This document shows, piece after piece, positions 2,732 through 6,606 of a DNA stretch of 21,496 nt (position 1 is the first letter of the stretch; each line of letters opens with the position of its first letter). The translations under genes and the position numbers were made by a program. The DNA is from a virus. The stretch covers positions 1 through 21,496 of the IMG/VR virus record IMGVR_UViG_3300046458_000064. One strand, 5' to 3'. Below the pieces are notes generated by a model, which was given only the letters and a program-made list of their open reading frames with translations, made no database searches and was not told where the DNA came from.

Positions 2732-3091
2732 ATGTTCAATCGGTTTCTGGCGACAACGGCAATACTCCTCACTTTCAGCCCTGCAGCACACAGCGCACCC
2801 TTGCCCAGCGAATATCTGGAAGAGTGCCAGCGAGTCGAAAATTCGGCCAAAGCCATCATGAAAGCCAGGCAAGGAGGCGTGCCCCTCTCCTCCGTCCTGG
2901 AACTGGCCGACAACGCAGGAAAGGAGAGCGAGTATGTGGGTAGTTTGTACAAAGCCTTGATCGGGCAGGCCTACGACATGCCTAGGGAGTCGGACGCGAG
3001 GAAGCAGGAGAAGGTGGTGGCTGACTTTCAGCAAACTTTTTATTCGCTTTGCATCGATTCGGCACAGAAAACGGCGAGTGAAAGAAGCTGA
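2732..3091 (+). CDS. Small exported hypothetical protein
   Basis: A 119-residue protein of unknown function. The N-terminal ~22 residues (MFNRFLATTAILLTFSPAAHSA) are a Sec signal peptide with an A-H-S-A cleavage site. The mature part is helical in character, with two cysteines (in EECQ and SLCID) that could form a disulphide. Its pattern of KALIGQAYDMP followed by a C-terminal FxxxxxxxC resembles small secreted proteins I associate with Pseudomonas and Acinetobacter genomes, but I cannot name a family. The ATG at 2732 is preceded by AGGGA 9 nt upstream; an earlier in-frame ATG at 2693 would bury the signal peptide. It ends 87 nt before the tRNA-Pro remnant, on the chromosomal side of the presumed prophage junction. 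Confidence 0.72.
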   Translation: MFNRFLATTAILLTFSPAAHSAPLPSEYLEECQRVENSAKAIMKARQGGVPLSSVLELADNAGKESEYVGSLYKALIGQAYDMPRESDARKQEKVVADFQQTFYSLCIDSAQKTASERS

Positions 3092-3133
3092 CGGGAAATG
3101 CTCTTCTATAGAGAGCAAAAATCACTGCGCATG

Positions 3134-3161
3134 AAAAAGCCCAATCTTTTCAGATTGGGCT
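3134..3161 (-). terminator. Intrinsic terminator behind tRNA-Pro remnant
   Basis: A perfect 10-bp stem (AGCCCAATCT with AGATTGGGCT, 4-nt loop) is followed on the minus strand by a T run. It sits 17 nt past the CCA of the tRNA fragment, as expected for the original tRNA terminator. This marks the left side as native tRNA downstream flank. Confidence 0.88.
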
Positions 3162-3177
3162 AAGTCATTGAATTATA

Positions 3178-3227
3178 TGGTCGGGACGGAGTGATTCGAA
3201 CACTCGACCCCTAGCACCCCATGCTGG
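3178..3227 (-). other. 3' fragment of tRNA-Pro(GGG): prophage attachment-site scar
   Basis: Read on the minus strand, this piece has the anticodon arm with loop ATGGGGT (anticodon GGG at 3220-3218), the variable loop, a perfect T-arm (GAGTG-TTCGAAT-CACTC), the 3' acceptor strand CGTCCCG, discriminator A and encoded CCA (3180-3178). The D-arm and 5' acceptor strand are missing: upstream of 3227 the sequence is unrelated. The anticodon stem has one mismatch (C3226/A3212), so identity with the intact tRNA probably ends near 3225. Such 3' fragments are left when tyrosine-recombinase elements integrate into a tRNA gene. The orientation puts the element to the right and predicts the intact tRNA at its far end. 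Confidence 0.8.
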
Positions 3228-3433
3228 GGACTGTAGCAGTCCAAGCATTTGTTTTGTAAGGATAAAGCCCTACTTTCAGGATAGCAAAACATCCGTTTTT
3301 TTGTGCTTATGCAAACGGAAAGACGCGGCCTGCAGAGGAGGTTTTGCGCAGGCGCTGGACTGCCTCAGTCTCCAGGATTTTTAGGCAGTGTGGTAGGTTT
3401 GCAGGCCACATAAACCCGATCAAGGAATGAACC
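3228..3433. other. Non-coding stretch inside the prophage end
   Basis: No convincing gene is present. Three short inverted repeats are visible: GGACTG-TAG-CAGTCC directly beside the tRNA fragment (3228-3242), GCCTGC...GCAGGC, and ACTGCCT...AGGCAGT, the last upstream of the following small gene. The stretch next to the tRNA fragment is where phage-side integrase arm sites would be expected, but I cannot identify them by eye. Confidence 0.4.
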
Positions 3434-3676
3434 ATGAAGGACAAGGTCAAGCTCAACCCAGGCGAAGAGTTAAAGTTCGAGAGCTCTCGTTCAAAGGGTT
3501 TCATGGCGGAAGAGGATATCAACGAATACTCCGTCGTAAACGCTGCCGGACAGGTTGTCGGACAGGTAACACACACCGATCACACGGCGGTGCGAGGCTT
3601 TAGAAGAACTCAGACGGTCCGCCAGACAGACGTTAATGGAAAGGTAATTGTCGACGAGCACTGGGAAGGCGCATAG
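3434..3676 (+). CDS. Small conserved-looking hypothetical protein
   Basis: An 80-residue soluble protein without signal peptide, membrane segment or cysteine. It has alternating hydrophobic residues typical of a small beta-rich fold (EYSVVNAAGQVVGQVTHTDHTAVRGFRRTQTVRQTDVNGKVIVDEHW). The ATG at 3434 is preceded by AAGGAA at a good distance. I recall similar short proteins at the ends of Pseudomonas prophages, but I assign no function. It is the first gene inside the attachment-site scar, on the plus strand, opposite to the phage late genes, which suggests expression in the lysogen. A 9-bp inverted repeat lies just behind it. Confidence 0.65.
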   Translation: MKDKVKLNPGEELKFESSRSKGFMAEEDINEYSVVNAAGQVVGQVTHTDHTAVRGFRRTQTVRQTDVNGKVIVDEHWEGA

Positions 3677-3686
3677 CAACCTTCTA

Positions 3687-3723
3687 TTGCGTGCCTAGGT
3701 TTCTCTTGTAAGCCGGCACGCAA
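3687..3723. repeat. 9-bp inverted repeat with 19-nt loop
   Basis: TTGCGTGCC (3687-3695) and GGCACGCAA (3715-3723) are perfect complements, 11 nt past the stop codon of the 80-residue gene. There is no T run, so it is either a Rho-independent-like relic, an mRNA-stabilising stem or a protein site. Confidence 0.5.
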
Positions 3724-3733
3724 GCCCACCACC

Positions 3734-3748
3734 ATGTCAAGGTGACAT
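3734..3748. repeat. Short palindrome, possible operator
   Basis: ATGTCA-AGG-TGACAT is a perfect 6-bp inverted repeat with a 3-nt spacer in the otherwise gene-free stretch 3677-3990. Its size suits a dimeric phage regulator, but only one copy is present, so the assignment is weak. The rest of this stretch, apart from the LexA box at its right end, shows nothing I can name. Confidence 0.3.
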
Positions 3749-3953
3749 CGGAATGACCGTAAGCTGCTGATATAAAAGAGAAACAGCCCTAAAATCGCAG
3801 GGTAAAAAGTCGCCATTACACCCTATAAGAATCAACAACTTAGCGCTGTATTTTCCTACAGTGCTTTGCCCTCCTACGGCGTCCTGCCGACAGTCACCGA
3901 TCCAGAATCCTACAGCTCGTCGACTCACCCTCGCTCACCCGACCGCCCTCGAT

Positions 3954-3973
3954 TACTGTATATCCAAACAGTA
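3954..3973. promoter_or_regulatory. LexA (SOS) box
   Basis: TACTGTATATCCAAACAGTA matches the 20-bp E. coli SOS consensus at 17 positions. It has the complete CTGT-N8-ACAG core and the flanking TA pairs. It lies 17 nt upstream of the GTG start at 3991, where it would overlap the promoter of that gene and repress it until DNA damage. Confidence 0.85.
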
Positions 3974-3990
3974 CAAAGCAAGGCACCTCT

Positions 3991-4359
3991 GTGGACCCCA
4001 TCTATATAGAAGAAACCGACGATTGGCTCGGCTGCCCGACGCCGCTCGAAACCTGCCGGCACCAGCTCGCCATCTACGAGAATGAGTTCGAAGAATTGAA
4101 CCTGCAGCTGCGCCAAGCAAGGGAGCGGATATTCAAGCTGGTTGAAATGCACGCTGGCGCCTCAGCCGAGTGCGAAACACTCCGATCCCAACTGAGCGCC
4201 GCGAAGTCAGAAGCGGCAGACGCCAGAAGGCGTGCTACCGACATCGAGACCAAAAGCACTTGGGAGTTGATGGCGAAGAACAAGCACATCAGCGAATTGG
4301 TCACCAAACTGGAAGCCGCAACGGGCATCAGTGTGCGCACAGGTCAGCAGATCCGTTAA
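3991..4359 (+). CDS. LexA-controlled coiled-coil protein, function unknown
   Basis: A 122-residue cytoplasmic protein starting at GTG, with AAGG 7 nt upstream. Residues 1-~20 are acidic and contain WLGCP. Residues ~22-112 are almost entirely heptad-like (NEFEELNLQLRQARERIFKL, CETLRSQLSAAKSEAADA, ISELVTKLEAA), so a long coiled coil is likely. There is no signal peptide and no catalytic motif. The near-consensus LexA box just upstream predicts induction by DNA damage. Known LexA-repressed prophage genes include antirepressors such as Tum of phage 186 and those of Gifsy prophages, which are small proteins that titrate the phage repressor. An antirepressor or lysis-timing role is therefore a reasonable but unproven guess. 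A relic of a lysis cassette begins 2 bp behind its stop codon. Confidence 0.75.
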   Translation: MDPIYIEETDDWLGCPTPLETCRHQLAIYENEFEELNLQLRQARERIFKLVEMHAGASAECETLRSQLSAAKSEAADARRRATDIETKSTWELMAKNKHISELVTKLEAATGISVRTGQQIR

Positions 4360-4360
4360 C

Positions 4361-4431
4361 GACCATCACGGCACACCAGTGAAGGAAACTTGTCGGCCCG
4401 GCTTGAGATTCCGTTTAGCTTTCGCCACCCA
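4361..4431 (-). pseudogene. Relic of hydrolase 3' end and Rz start
   Basis: This stretch aligns without gaps to 6179-6249, with 54 of 71 bases identical by my count and the first 15 identical. On the minus strand it reads VAKAKRNLKPGRQVSFTGVP-stop, matching the intact hydrolase end AAKAKQTLKLGGHVFFKDVP-stop. It also keeps the same TGATG overlap with a following Rz-like start (M-V-V instead of M-V-I). Homology stops abruptly on both sides, at the coiled-coil gene stop codon and near 4432. It is a fossil of a second, diverged lysis cassette. Confidence 0.85.
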
Positions 4432-4576
4432 CCACAACGGACGTCGATGACTTCATTTACCGATTCTCAATCGTTCAGTCTACGACGCCATGCCGACCTT
4501 ACATCGCTCCACTCGTGTATCATCTACGCCCAAAATTACACAGCGCTATGCTAGGCAAACAAAATCTAGGGAACCC

Positions 4577-5656
4577 ATGAAAAACAACACGGACCGTATA
4601 GTCTTCCTTGACTACATGCGAATATTGGCTTTCGTTAGCGTGCTGGTAGGGCACAAATTCATTCAACAGATAATAGCAGTGATGCTAGACGAGAAGACTC
4701 ATGCGTCATTAAGGCTTGTCGCAGAAGTTGCCTATCAGATTTGCTACGGCGGTGCCGCAGGCGTCGTTGTTTTCTTCCTGACCTCTGGCTACATCATTTC
4801 TCACGTACTTCAATCTGAGCCTACAACCGAATTCATCATCAAACGAATTTTTCGGATTTACCCTCTTTTCATTTTTGCCGTGATTATGCAGGCACTGCTT
4901 GATCGCTACGTATCTGGCGTACCATTCGCTGATTTCTGGATGTGGATACCTAGACTGCTGCTTCTTGGAGATTACTTCGGCATTCCTCCCGTAATTGGTA
5001 GCGTTGAATGGACGCTTAGAATTGAAATTTCCTTTTACGTATTCATGGCGGTTATGAAGGCCGTCGGTATCATGCGCTACCAAAACTATCTTCCGGCAGT
5101 ATTTGTCGTGGCTACCGGCTTGCTGCATTATCTACCGCCATTCCCAAGTACTCCAGGGCTGGCCTTGGCCTATTTTTCTACCTACGCTCCATTTCTGTTC
5201 GCAGGTTCGTGCATCTATCTTATCGAGAAAAAGAAAGCATCAATCAATATCTGCATTGCCGCGATACTCATAATTATGTACTCATTCTTTGTCAAGACGA
5301 CAAAGTACCTACCCGACTGGAACAACCTCAACTACGGCATATACGCGCTGGGGTTATTCTTGGCAGCTTGGCTGTTAAGAAAATCCATGAATGACGGTCC
5401 GATTATCCGATTACTTTCTACACTCACTTATTCGGTCTATCTCTTTCATAACTGGCTTTGGAATTACATTCTAATGGCGGCCTCCAGCCTTGGAGTTCAA
5501 GAAGCACTCATCAAACCAGTCACCTTGGTGGTCCTATTAATCTTCTGCTATGCCATAAATAAGACTGTAGAAGAGTATGGCTTGAATGCTGGACGGGCGG
5601 TAATTAATCGTTTTAGGTCATCTAGGGCGCGAACTCTGATATCTACGCCCTCATAG
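4577..5656 (+). CDS. Acyltransferase-3 family membrane protein (probable O-antigen acyltransferase)
   Basis: A 359-residue integral membrane protein of the acyltransferase 3 family (OafA/OatA-like), which transfers acetyl or similar groups to surface sugars at the inner membrane. Diagnostic motifs appear in order: FLDYMRILAFVSVLVGHKF at the N-terminus with the catalytic-type His, GAAGVVVFFLTSGYIISHVL, then the basic FIIKRIFRIYPLF, then VEWTLRIEISFYVFM. About ten hydrophobic segments follow each other to the C-terminus. The ATG at 4577 has TAGGGAA just upstream; an in-frame ATG at 4490 would add 29 polar residues. The gene is clearly more AT-rich than the tail genes, on the opposite strand, and lies between the attachment scar and the lysis genes. 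That is the usual place for lysogenic-conversion genes that alter O-antigen and block phage adsorption. Confidence 0.88.
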   Translation: MKNNTDRIVFLDYMRILAFVSVLVGHKFIQQIIAVMLDEKTHASLRLVAEVAYQICYGGAAGVVVFFLTSGYIISHVLQSEPTTEFIIKRIFRIYPLFIFAVIMQALLDRYVSGVPFADFWMWIPRLLLLGDYFGIPPVIGSVEWTLRIEISFYVFMAVMKAVGIMRYQNYLPAVFVVATGLLHYLPPFPSTPGLALAYFSTYAPFLFAGSCIYLIEKKKASINICIAAILIIMYSFFVKTTKYLPDWNNLNYGIYALGLFLAAWLLRKSMNDGPIIRLLSTLTYSVYLFHNWLWNYILMAASSLGVQEALIKPVTLVVLLIFCYAINKTVEEYGLNAGRAVINRFRSSRARTLISTPS

Positions 5657-5680: not shown

Positions 5681-6184
5681 TCAGCGCGACACCGTCCTGA
5701 CATAAGCCTGACAGGCCTGCAAGGCGATCAGTCCACGGTCGCCGGTGTCGGTGATGGCGATAATTCGTTGAGCATGCGCCGGGTCAAGTCGGGCGCGTAC
5801 GGTTGCATGATCCACGCCGCTGGCGCCGGTGGTTTTTGGCACGTCACAGCCACTGGCTGAATCCGCGTCGAGGAGGACTGACAGCCGCAGATCAGAAGTG
5901 GCAAGGCGATCGCGCAGGCGATCTTGGTCACGTTGGGCATCGGTCATTTTCCTGAAGTGGGTTTGCTCGCTGGCCACCAGCCGCTGCTCGATCGCCAGAC
6001 GCTTGTCCTGCTCGGCCTGCTGCGCGGTGGCGGCCGCCTGCGTAAGTTGGTTGAGGGTTTCGGCGTGCTGTTTGTCTTGCTGGGCCAATTGATTCCCGTA
6101 GCGCCAGTCCTGAAACTGCCAGGCGCTGCCGAAGCCGGCGAGAAAAAGCGTCAGCAGGCCGACCGCTTTCCACGGAATGACCAT
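5681..6184 (-). CDS. Rz: Inner-membrane spanin Rz
   Basis: A 167-residue Rz-type i-spanin that, with Rz1, bridges the periplasm and fuses inner and outer membranes in the last step of phage lysis. Residues ~5-22 form one N-terminal transmembrane segment (GLLTLFLAGFGSAW). The next ~90 residues are a Q/A/E-rich coiled coil, followed by a C-terminal domain with two cysteines. The ATG at 6184 overlaps the stop codon of the hydrolase gene (TGATG), with AAGGATG as ribosome site; the GTG one codon earlier is less likely. Rz1 is encoded inside it in another frame. It is the last late gene before the convergent acyltransferase gene. Confidence 0.9.
   Translation of the reverse strand: MVIPWKAVGLLTLFLAGFGSAWQFQDWRYGNQLAQQDKQHAETLNQLTQAAATAQQAEQDKRLAIEQRLVASEQTHFRKMTDAQRDQDRLRDRLATSDLRLSVLLDADSASGCDVPKTTGASGVDHATVRARLDPAHAQRIIAITDTGDRGLIALQACQAYVRTVSR
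5728..5940 (-). CDS. Rz1: Outer-membrane spanin lipoprotein Rz1 (nested in Rz)
   Basis: A 70-residue lipoprotein encoded entirely within Rz in a different frame, the same layout as lambda Rz/Rz1. It begins with a basic N-terminus and a hydrophobic stretch (IACAIALPLLICGC) whose lipobox I-C-G-C gives a lipidated Cys near residue 20. A Pro-rich linker (KPPAPAAW) follows, which is characteristic of o-spanins. AGGAAA lies upstream of the ATG. It would sit on the inner leaflet of the outer membrane and pair with the C-terminus of Rz. Confidence 0.88.
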   Translation of the reverse strand: MPNVTKIACAIALPLLICGCQSSSTRIQPVAVTCQKPPAPAAWIMQPYAPDLTRRMLNELSPSPTPATVD

Positions 6185-6606
6185 CACGGCACATCCTTGA
6201 AGAACACGTGGCCGCCCAGCTTAAGCGTCTGCTTTGCCTTCGCCGCCCAAGCCGGCGCCTTGATGCTGGTGGCGTAATAATGCGTAGCGCCGCCGGTTGG
6301 ATCAGGCACCTTGCCGTCGATCACCTGGTCAGCAGCGATCCGGCATTGCGCCAGCTCGCGGAACGGGATCTGCTTCACGCCGATCAGGAACTGGTAGTTC
6401 GGGTCGGTCTTGTTCCAGCAGCTGAACTGCCACGGCTTTTGGCAGACCCCAGCGTAGCCCTCGCCCCACCACGAATTGGTCTTGCCATCGAATACGCGGT
6501 TGCGGATCGTCCAAGCCACGGCGATCTGGCCGGCGGTTCCTTCGCCGCGAGCTTCGCCCCAAATCGTGCGGGCGAGGATAACGCGGTCTTGTTCGGTAAC
6601 TGTCAT
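6184..6606 (-). CDS. Cell wall hydrolase, SleB/Hydrolase_2 family (endolysin)
   Basis: A 140-residue peptidoglycan hydrolase. The sequence LARTIWGEARGEG near the N-terminus, with Glu residues typical of the lytic-transglycosylase-like SleB/CwlJ fold, and the following IAVAWTIRNRV and VCQKPWQFSCWN are diagnostic of Hydrolase_2 proteins. These serve as endolysins in many Pseudomonas prophages. There is no signal peptide or N-terminal anchor, so export would need a holin, which I do not see in the window. I start at the ATG at 6606 because GGAGA precedes it by 7 nt; a GTG lies one codon upstream. It overlaps Rz by the TGATG junction, and an intrinsic terminator separates it from the tail-fibre genes upstream. 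Confidence 0.9.
   Translation of the reverse strand: MTVTEQDRVILARTIWGEARGEGTAGQIAVAWTIRNRVFDGKTNSWWGEGYAGVCQKPWQFSCWNKTDPNYQFLIGVKQIPFRELAQCRIAADQVIDGKVPDPTGGATHYYATSIKAPAWAAKAKQTLKLGGHVFFKDVP

Follow-up and report, generated by a model that had tools for sequence, protein, structure and literature searches.

SulA- and YmfM-type division inhibitors are SOS-induced small proteins that act on host division, and LexA-controlled prophage genes are usually taken for antirepressors. Such antirepressors serve the Gifsy, 186 and N15 phages, and the known ones are small proteins whose genes lie outside the immunity region (PMC3121763). In Pseudomonas putida, the LexA-controlled prophage gene PP_3901 has been reported to be necessary for damage-induced prophage expression (PMC4595014), and GIL01 gp7, a small phage protein, binds LexA and interferes with LexA cleavage (PMC4551915). 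The SRAP domain, an SOS-linked autopeptidase domain, is also found in prophages (PMC3765255). The window, that is, the whole stretch of DNA analyzed here, is a 21.5-kb viral record that contains the host gene rtcR (RtcR Pfam match at 658-2256), left of att, then the att junction and a prophage with minus-strand lysis and tail genes. Between the att/int end and the lysis cassette of this Pseudomonas prophage sits a gene for a 122-aa coiled-coil protein, with the following features in and around it:

3177-3225, minus strand: att core, the 3' half of a host tRNA gene, at the prophage/host junction (exact match of about 50 nt in many carrier prophages)
3910-3934, plus strand: element CTACAGCTCGTCGnCTCACCCTCGC upstream of the promoter, some 20-45 nt 5' of the box, conserved and recurring in most homologous loci
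3954-3973, plus strand: predicted SOS/LexA box TACTGTATATCCAAACAGTA (consensus match; same spacing in 139 of 142 loci)
3980-3983, plus strand: ribosome-binding site AAGG, as read from the sequence
3991-4359, plus strand: gene of the 122-aa coiled-coil protein, GTG start (homologues; dN well below dS in most pairs)
4009-4053, plus strand: conserved N-terminal motif EETDDWLGCPTPLET, residues 7-21, a putative docking motif (alignment; for the most part not within the modeled helix)
4042-4323, plus strand: one long helix spanning residues 18-111, a heptad coiled coil (AlphaFold2; periodicity)
4577-5656, plus strand: cargo gene for an O-acyltransferase, filling the slot that separates the SOS gene from the lysis genes (Acyl_transf_3, E 3.5e-22; phrog_3333, E 2.2e-43)

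A preliminary description of this DNA had claimed an SOS box with an intact core, placed 17 nt before a GTG start with its ribosome site, and a product of 122 residues, all of which the sequence confirms. TACTGTATATCCAAACAGTA matches 17 of the 20 consensus positions (three mismatches) with a complete CTGT-N8-ACAG core, the GTG start at 3991 follows 17 nt past the box, and ORF 3991-4359 has the length announced. No other match of that quality occurs in the window, and none appeared in 100 shuffles. The upstream element CTACAGCTCGTCGnCTCACCCTCGC gives way to GGCGTCCTGCCGACGAACACC in other homologous loci. A second exact CTGT-N8-ACAG at 3846-3861, absent from the preliminary description, is probably no LexA site, since its left half is unconserved and many relatives have GTTGTATATTCCTACAG at that place.

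The conservation of the box with the gene argues against a chance match. Upstream DNA of 80 nt or more is available for 142 homologous loci, which share ancestry and include some near-duplicate contigs. Of these, 120 have the exact core upstream and 19 more a core with one mismatch, in nearly every case at about -33 to -37 from the start; the three loci without the box include one with a partial match. By comparison, only 64 of 2313 control ORFs, defined mechanically as ORFs of at least 90 aa from the same loci, have a core in the same range (17 exact, 47 with one mismatch). The extended box positions are conserved too (TTA before the core, TA after), and the box is also present ahead of distant homologues found by profile search. 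The ORF is under purifying selection, most pairs having a dN much lower than dS in either half of the protein, and therefore box and ORF evolve together. As in members of the SOS regulon, a LexA box lies in the promoter/start region and is conserved with the gene across species. LexA control of the gene through the predicted box is thus strongly supported, having survived the search for homologues lacking the box, and the protein is very probably made upon host DNA damage.

The same early description had called the product a coiled coil. This was borne out by AlphaFold2, run on an alignment of the window and locus proteins only, which predicts one 94-residue helix (residues 18-111) with a pLDDT of about 97, and by a hydrophobic periodicity of 3.5 residues that none of 5000 shuffles equalled. 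The protein is probably a self-associating coiled coil, which would form dimers. Its family N-terminus reads I-E-D-T-x-D-W-L-G-C-P-T-P-L-E-T, giving an acidic motif EDTxDWLGxPTPLE in which, together with the flanking residues, T9, W12, G14, P16 and T21 are invariant across the window and locus proteins. The C-terminal parts form three large classes, and phages have exchanged the stretch beyond about residue 60: in 51 pairs, the N-terminal 60 residues are at least 85% identical while the C-terminal parts are less than 30% identical. Searches of Pfam, PHROGs and NCBIfam, DinI and PsiB families included, returned only coiled-coil background for this protein, as did a PDB sequence search; Foldseek against viral models gave nothing below E 2, as expected for a structure consisting of one helix. 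The match to YabA (PF06156) reached 13.6 bits against a cut-off of 30 and belongs to the coiled-coil background, and no profile backs the annotations “minor tail protein” and “DarA” carried by homologues. Judged from these searches, the protein founds a new family, on which we found no paper among the open-licence literature.

Searches turned up homologues on 13 genome contigs, on 61 viral contigs and in five phage records. The family is carried by 113 of 399 Pseudomonas genomes (28% of the sampled species), some of which hold two to four copies. Among 294 sampled genomes of the order, the only clear matches were two genomes already in the genus search, with a third, marginal match (E 1e-3), so that the family was not found convincingly outside Pseudomonas. 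A composite DNA pattern over the family yielded zero matches, being too strict for this result to carry information.

The location near the attachment site, also proposed earlier, was upheld by the exact match of about 50 nt to a tRNA half at 3177-3225, common to many such prophages. The tRNA is probably tRNA-Pro(GGG); ARAGORN found no intact tRNA, and phage-conserved DNA follows the core. Beside att, a non-coding stretch of about 160 nt (3726-3890) is strongly conserved in at least 15 prophages. As read, it has an IHF-like site AATCAAnnnnTTA, an extended -10-like motif TGTATATT and a CGGCGTTCTGCCG hairpin; in the window it also contains the CTGT-N8-ACAG at 3846-3861. It may represent an arm of attP or a promoter whose gene has been lost. 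Between att and the SOS gene, an ORF of 80 aa (3434-3676) has no family match and is not among the ORFs that recur in related loci. The minus-strand ORF 3610-3816, considered as a small hydrophobic (TisB-like) peptide, has no family match, and an Rfam search of 3000-4700 gave no match.

Upstream of the gene and on its strand, other loci often have a conserved 69-aa ORF (MPNSDLLPSLLFKINENQLALEAAI...), which is missing from the window; it occurs in L064 (about 1240-1530) and in the majority of 28 further loci. In L013, L014, L042, L049-L051, L056, L059, L060 and L069, another exact LexA-like box (CTGTATATATAAACAG or a variant of it) is found near the start of a divergent gene, at about -195 to -255 relative to the SOS gene. 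The divergent gene, which in several of these loci encodes a Dam-like adenine methylase, may also be SOS-controlled. The slot downstream of the SOS gene holds cargo that varies between loci (acyltransferases, Dam-like methylase, SRAP). SRAP, confirmed by Pfam for one, is the most frequent same-strand cargo; its start lies at most 60 nt past the stop of the SOS gene in 15 loci and at most 300 nt in 19 of 144. The link to SRAP may be incidental, since most loci have no SRAP and the slot also holds unrelated cargo. In the window, a 71-nt stretch following the SOS gene (4360-4431) is 76% identical to one at the endolysin/Rz junction (6179-6249), pointing to an earlier recombination event by which the acyltransferase cargo may have been acquired.

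What the protein does can be approached through the repressors of the phages that carry it. An antirepressor of the Tum/GfoA/AntC type, under LexA control, would bind the phage repressor, free the DNA and couple induction to SOS. The position of the 122-aa gene, under predicted LexA control from outside the immunity region and beside att and the lysis genes, fits this explanation, as does the role reported for PP_3901. The repressors themselves fit it less well. They were compared in 31 carrier phages, the immunity region of the window, with its own repressor, lying outside the record. S24 repressors, which are of the self-cleaving type and should respond to RecA directly, are encoded by 28 of the 31, a class here taken from family membership, whereas an antirepressor would be expected beside a non-cleaved cognate repressor. 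The few carriers without S24 are more favorable to it: two of the remaining three have a helix-turn-helix (HTH) repressor without S24 together with the same protein family, and no repressor was found in the third. Clustered at 45% identity, the S24 repressors form nine groups, and the protein shows no covariation with the repressors (Spearman rho 0.005, p 0.92, 351 pairs for protein versus repressor identity). Thus, L076 and L077 have 100% identical proteins and repressors only 22% identical, while the repressors of L076 and L032 are 99% identical and their proteins 44%. An antirepressor hitting a feature common to all S24 repressors would likewise be decoupled from repressor identity. PP_3901, located through a published primer sequence, is no homologue: it matches DUF1654 (PF07867), which the window protein does not, the family profile has no match in the PP_3901 prophage, and in 9 of the 31 carriers DUF1654 occurs alongside the 122-aa family. 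Because S24 repressors predominate and the protein varies independently of them, the interpretation given in the preliminary description stands for LexA control, through the conservation of the box, and is weakened for an antirepressor that couples damage to induction. We regard an antirepressor for the phage's own repressor as rather improbable, and as less likely than an adaptor directed at the host.

Far less probable still is a lysis-timing or anti-lysis factor acting on the neighboring Rz/endolysin genes, an earlier suggestion for which gene proximity was the sole basis. The 122-aa gene usually faces Rz or endolysin in convergent orientation, and an overlap of some 20 nt with the Rz end is common. 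Nevertheless, the lysis genes lie on the opposite strand with a separate promoter, some loci (e.g., L016, L075) have no recognized lysis gene nearby, and in others up to 2 kb of cargo separates the two. The product, for its part, is a soluble coiled coil, a single heptad helix that matches no spanin, holin or endolysin family.

We favor, with a probability of about 0.5, a LexA-derepressed phage coiled-coil adaptor that acts on conserved host DNA-damage, replication or division machinery. Host machinery is the likeliest target because the protein is unchanged alongside many unrelated repressors and sometimes lies in an apparent operon with SRAP. In the lysogen, host LexA would repress the gene, and RecA-triggered LexA cleavage would turn it on directly, without involvement of the phage's own repressor. 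The conserved N-terminal motif would then dock on a component alike in all Pseudomonas hosts, most likely in the RecA/LexA pathway, the replisome or the divisome, and the exchangeable C-terminal helix would tune activity or engage a second partner. Damaged lysogens would thereby be conditioned for phage DNA replication and for survival during induction. LexA binding, dimerization, target and effect are what we infer for the protein on these grounds.

One form that such an adaptor might take, put forward tentatively, is a modulator of the host SOS core (RecA filament or LexA), similar to DinI/PsiB or to GIL01 gp7. It is equally tentative that this modulator would set the duration of S24-repressor and LexA cleavage. 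A universal host target would be alike whatever the repressor and so accounts for the independence from repressor type; the acidic N-terminus and the precedent of gp7 are in agreement with it, although the curated families, DinI and PsiB among them, and the PDB sequences gave nothing above background. More speculatively, these proteins might be genus-wide modular SOS adaptors whose fixed N-terminus docks on one host DNA-damage protein and whose exchangeable tails redirect it, the host SOS state (e.g., RecA/LexA cleavage) being set for all resident prophages whatever their repressor. The family keeps its LexA box across deep divergence and is indifferent to the repressor of the carrier phage. 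This makes it directly testable, in ordinary laboratory pseudomonads, whether prophages are tied to host DNA damage by a second route that does not depend on the repressor.

Compared with known systems, a functional likeness to SulA/YmfM-type inhibitors is possible, with no family similarity found. The 122-aa protein resembles Tum (phage 186), GfoA/GfhA (Gifsy-1/-3) and AntC (N15) as a small prophage protein, LexA-controlled (by prediction here) and encoded outside the immunity region. By contrast, those proteins act on non-cleaved repressors, whereas most carriers of the 122-aa protein have S24 repressors that it does not track; no DinI-like part was detected in it. PP_3901/DUF1654 likewise belongs to a Pseudomonas prophage and has a CTGT-N8-ACAG, about 30 nt before its GTG, but it is an unrelated protein of 86 aa. 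GIL01 gp7, likened here by description, is also a small phage protein in a LexA circuit, in a phage whose host is Bacillus thuringiensis. Finally, prophage genes of the SRAP (YedK/HMCES) family are SOS-linked and, in 15 loci, come next in what looks like one operon with the 122-aa gene; they encode a DNA-associated autopeptidase domain, in contrast to the plain coiled coil of the 122-aa protein.
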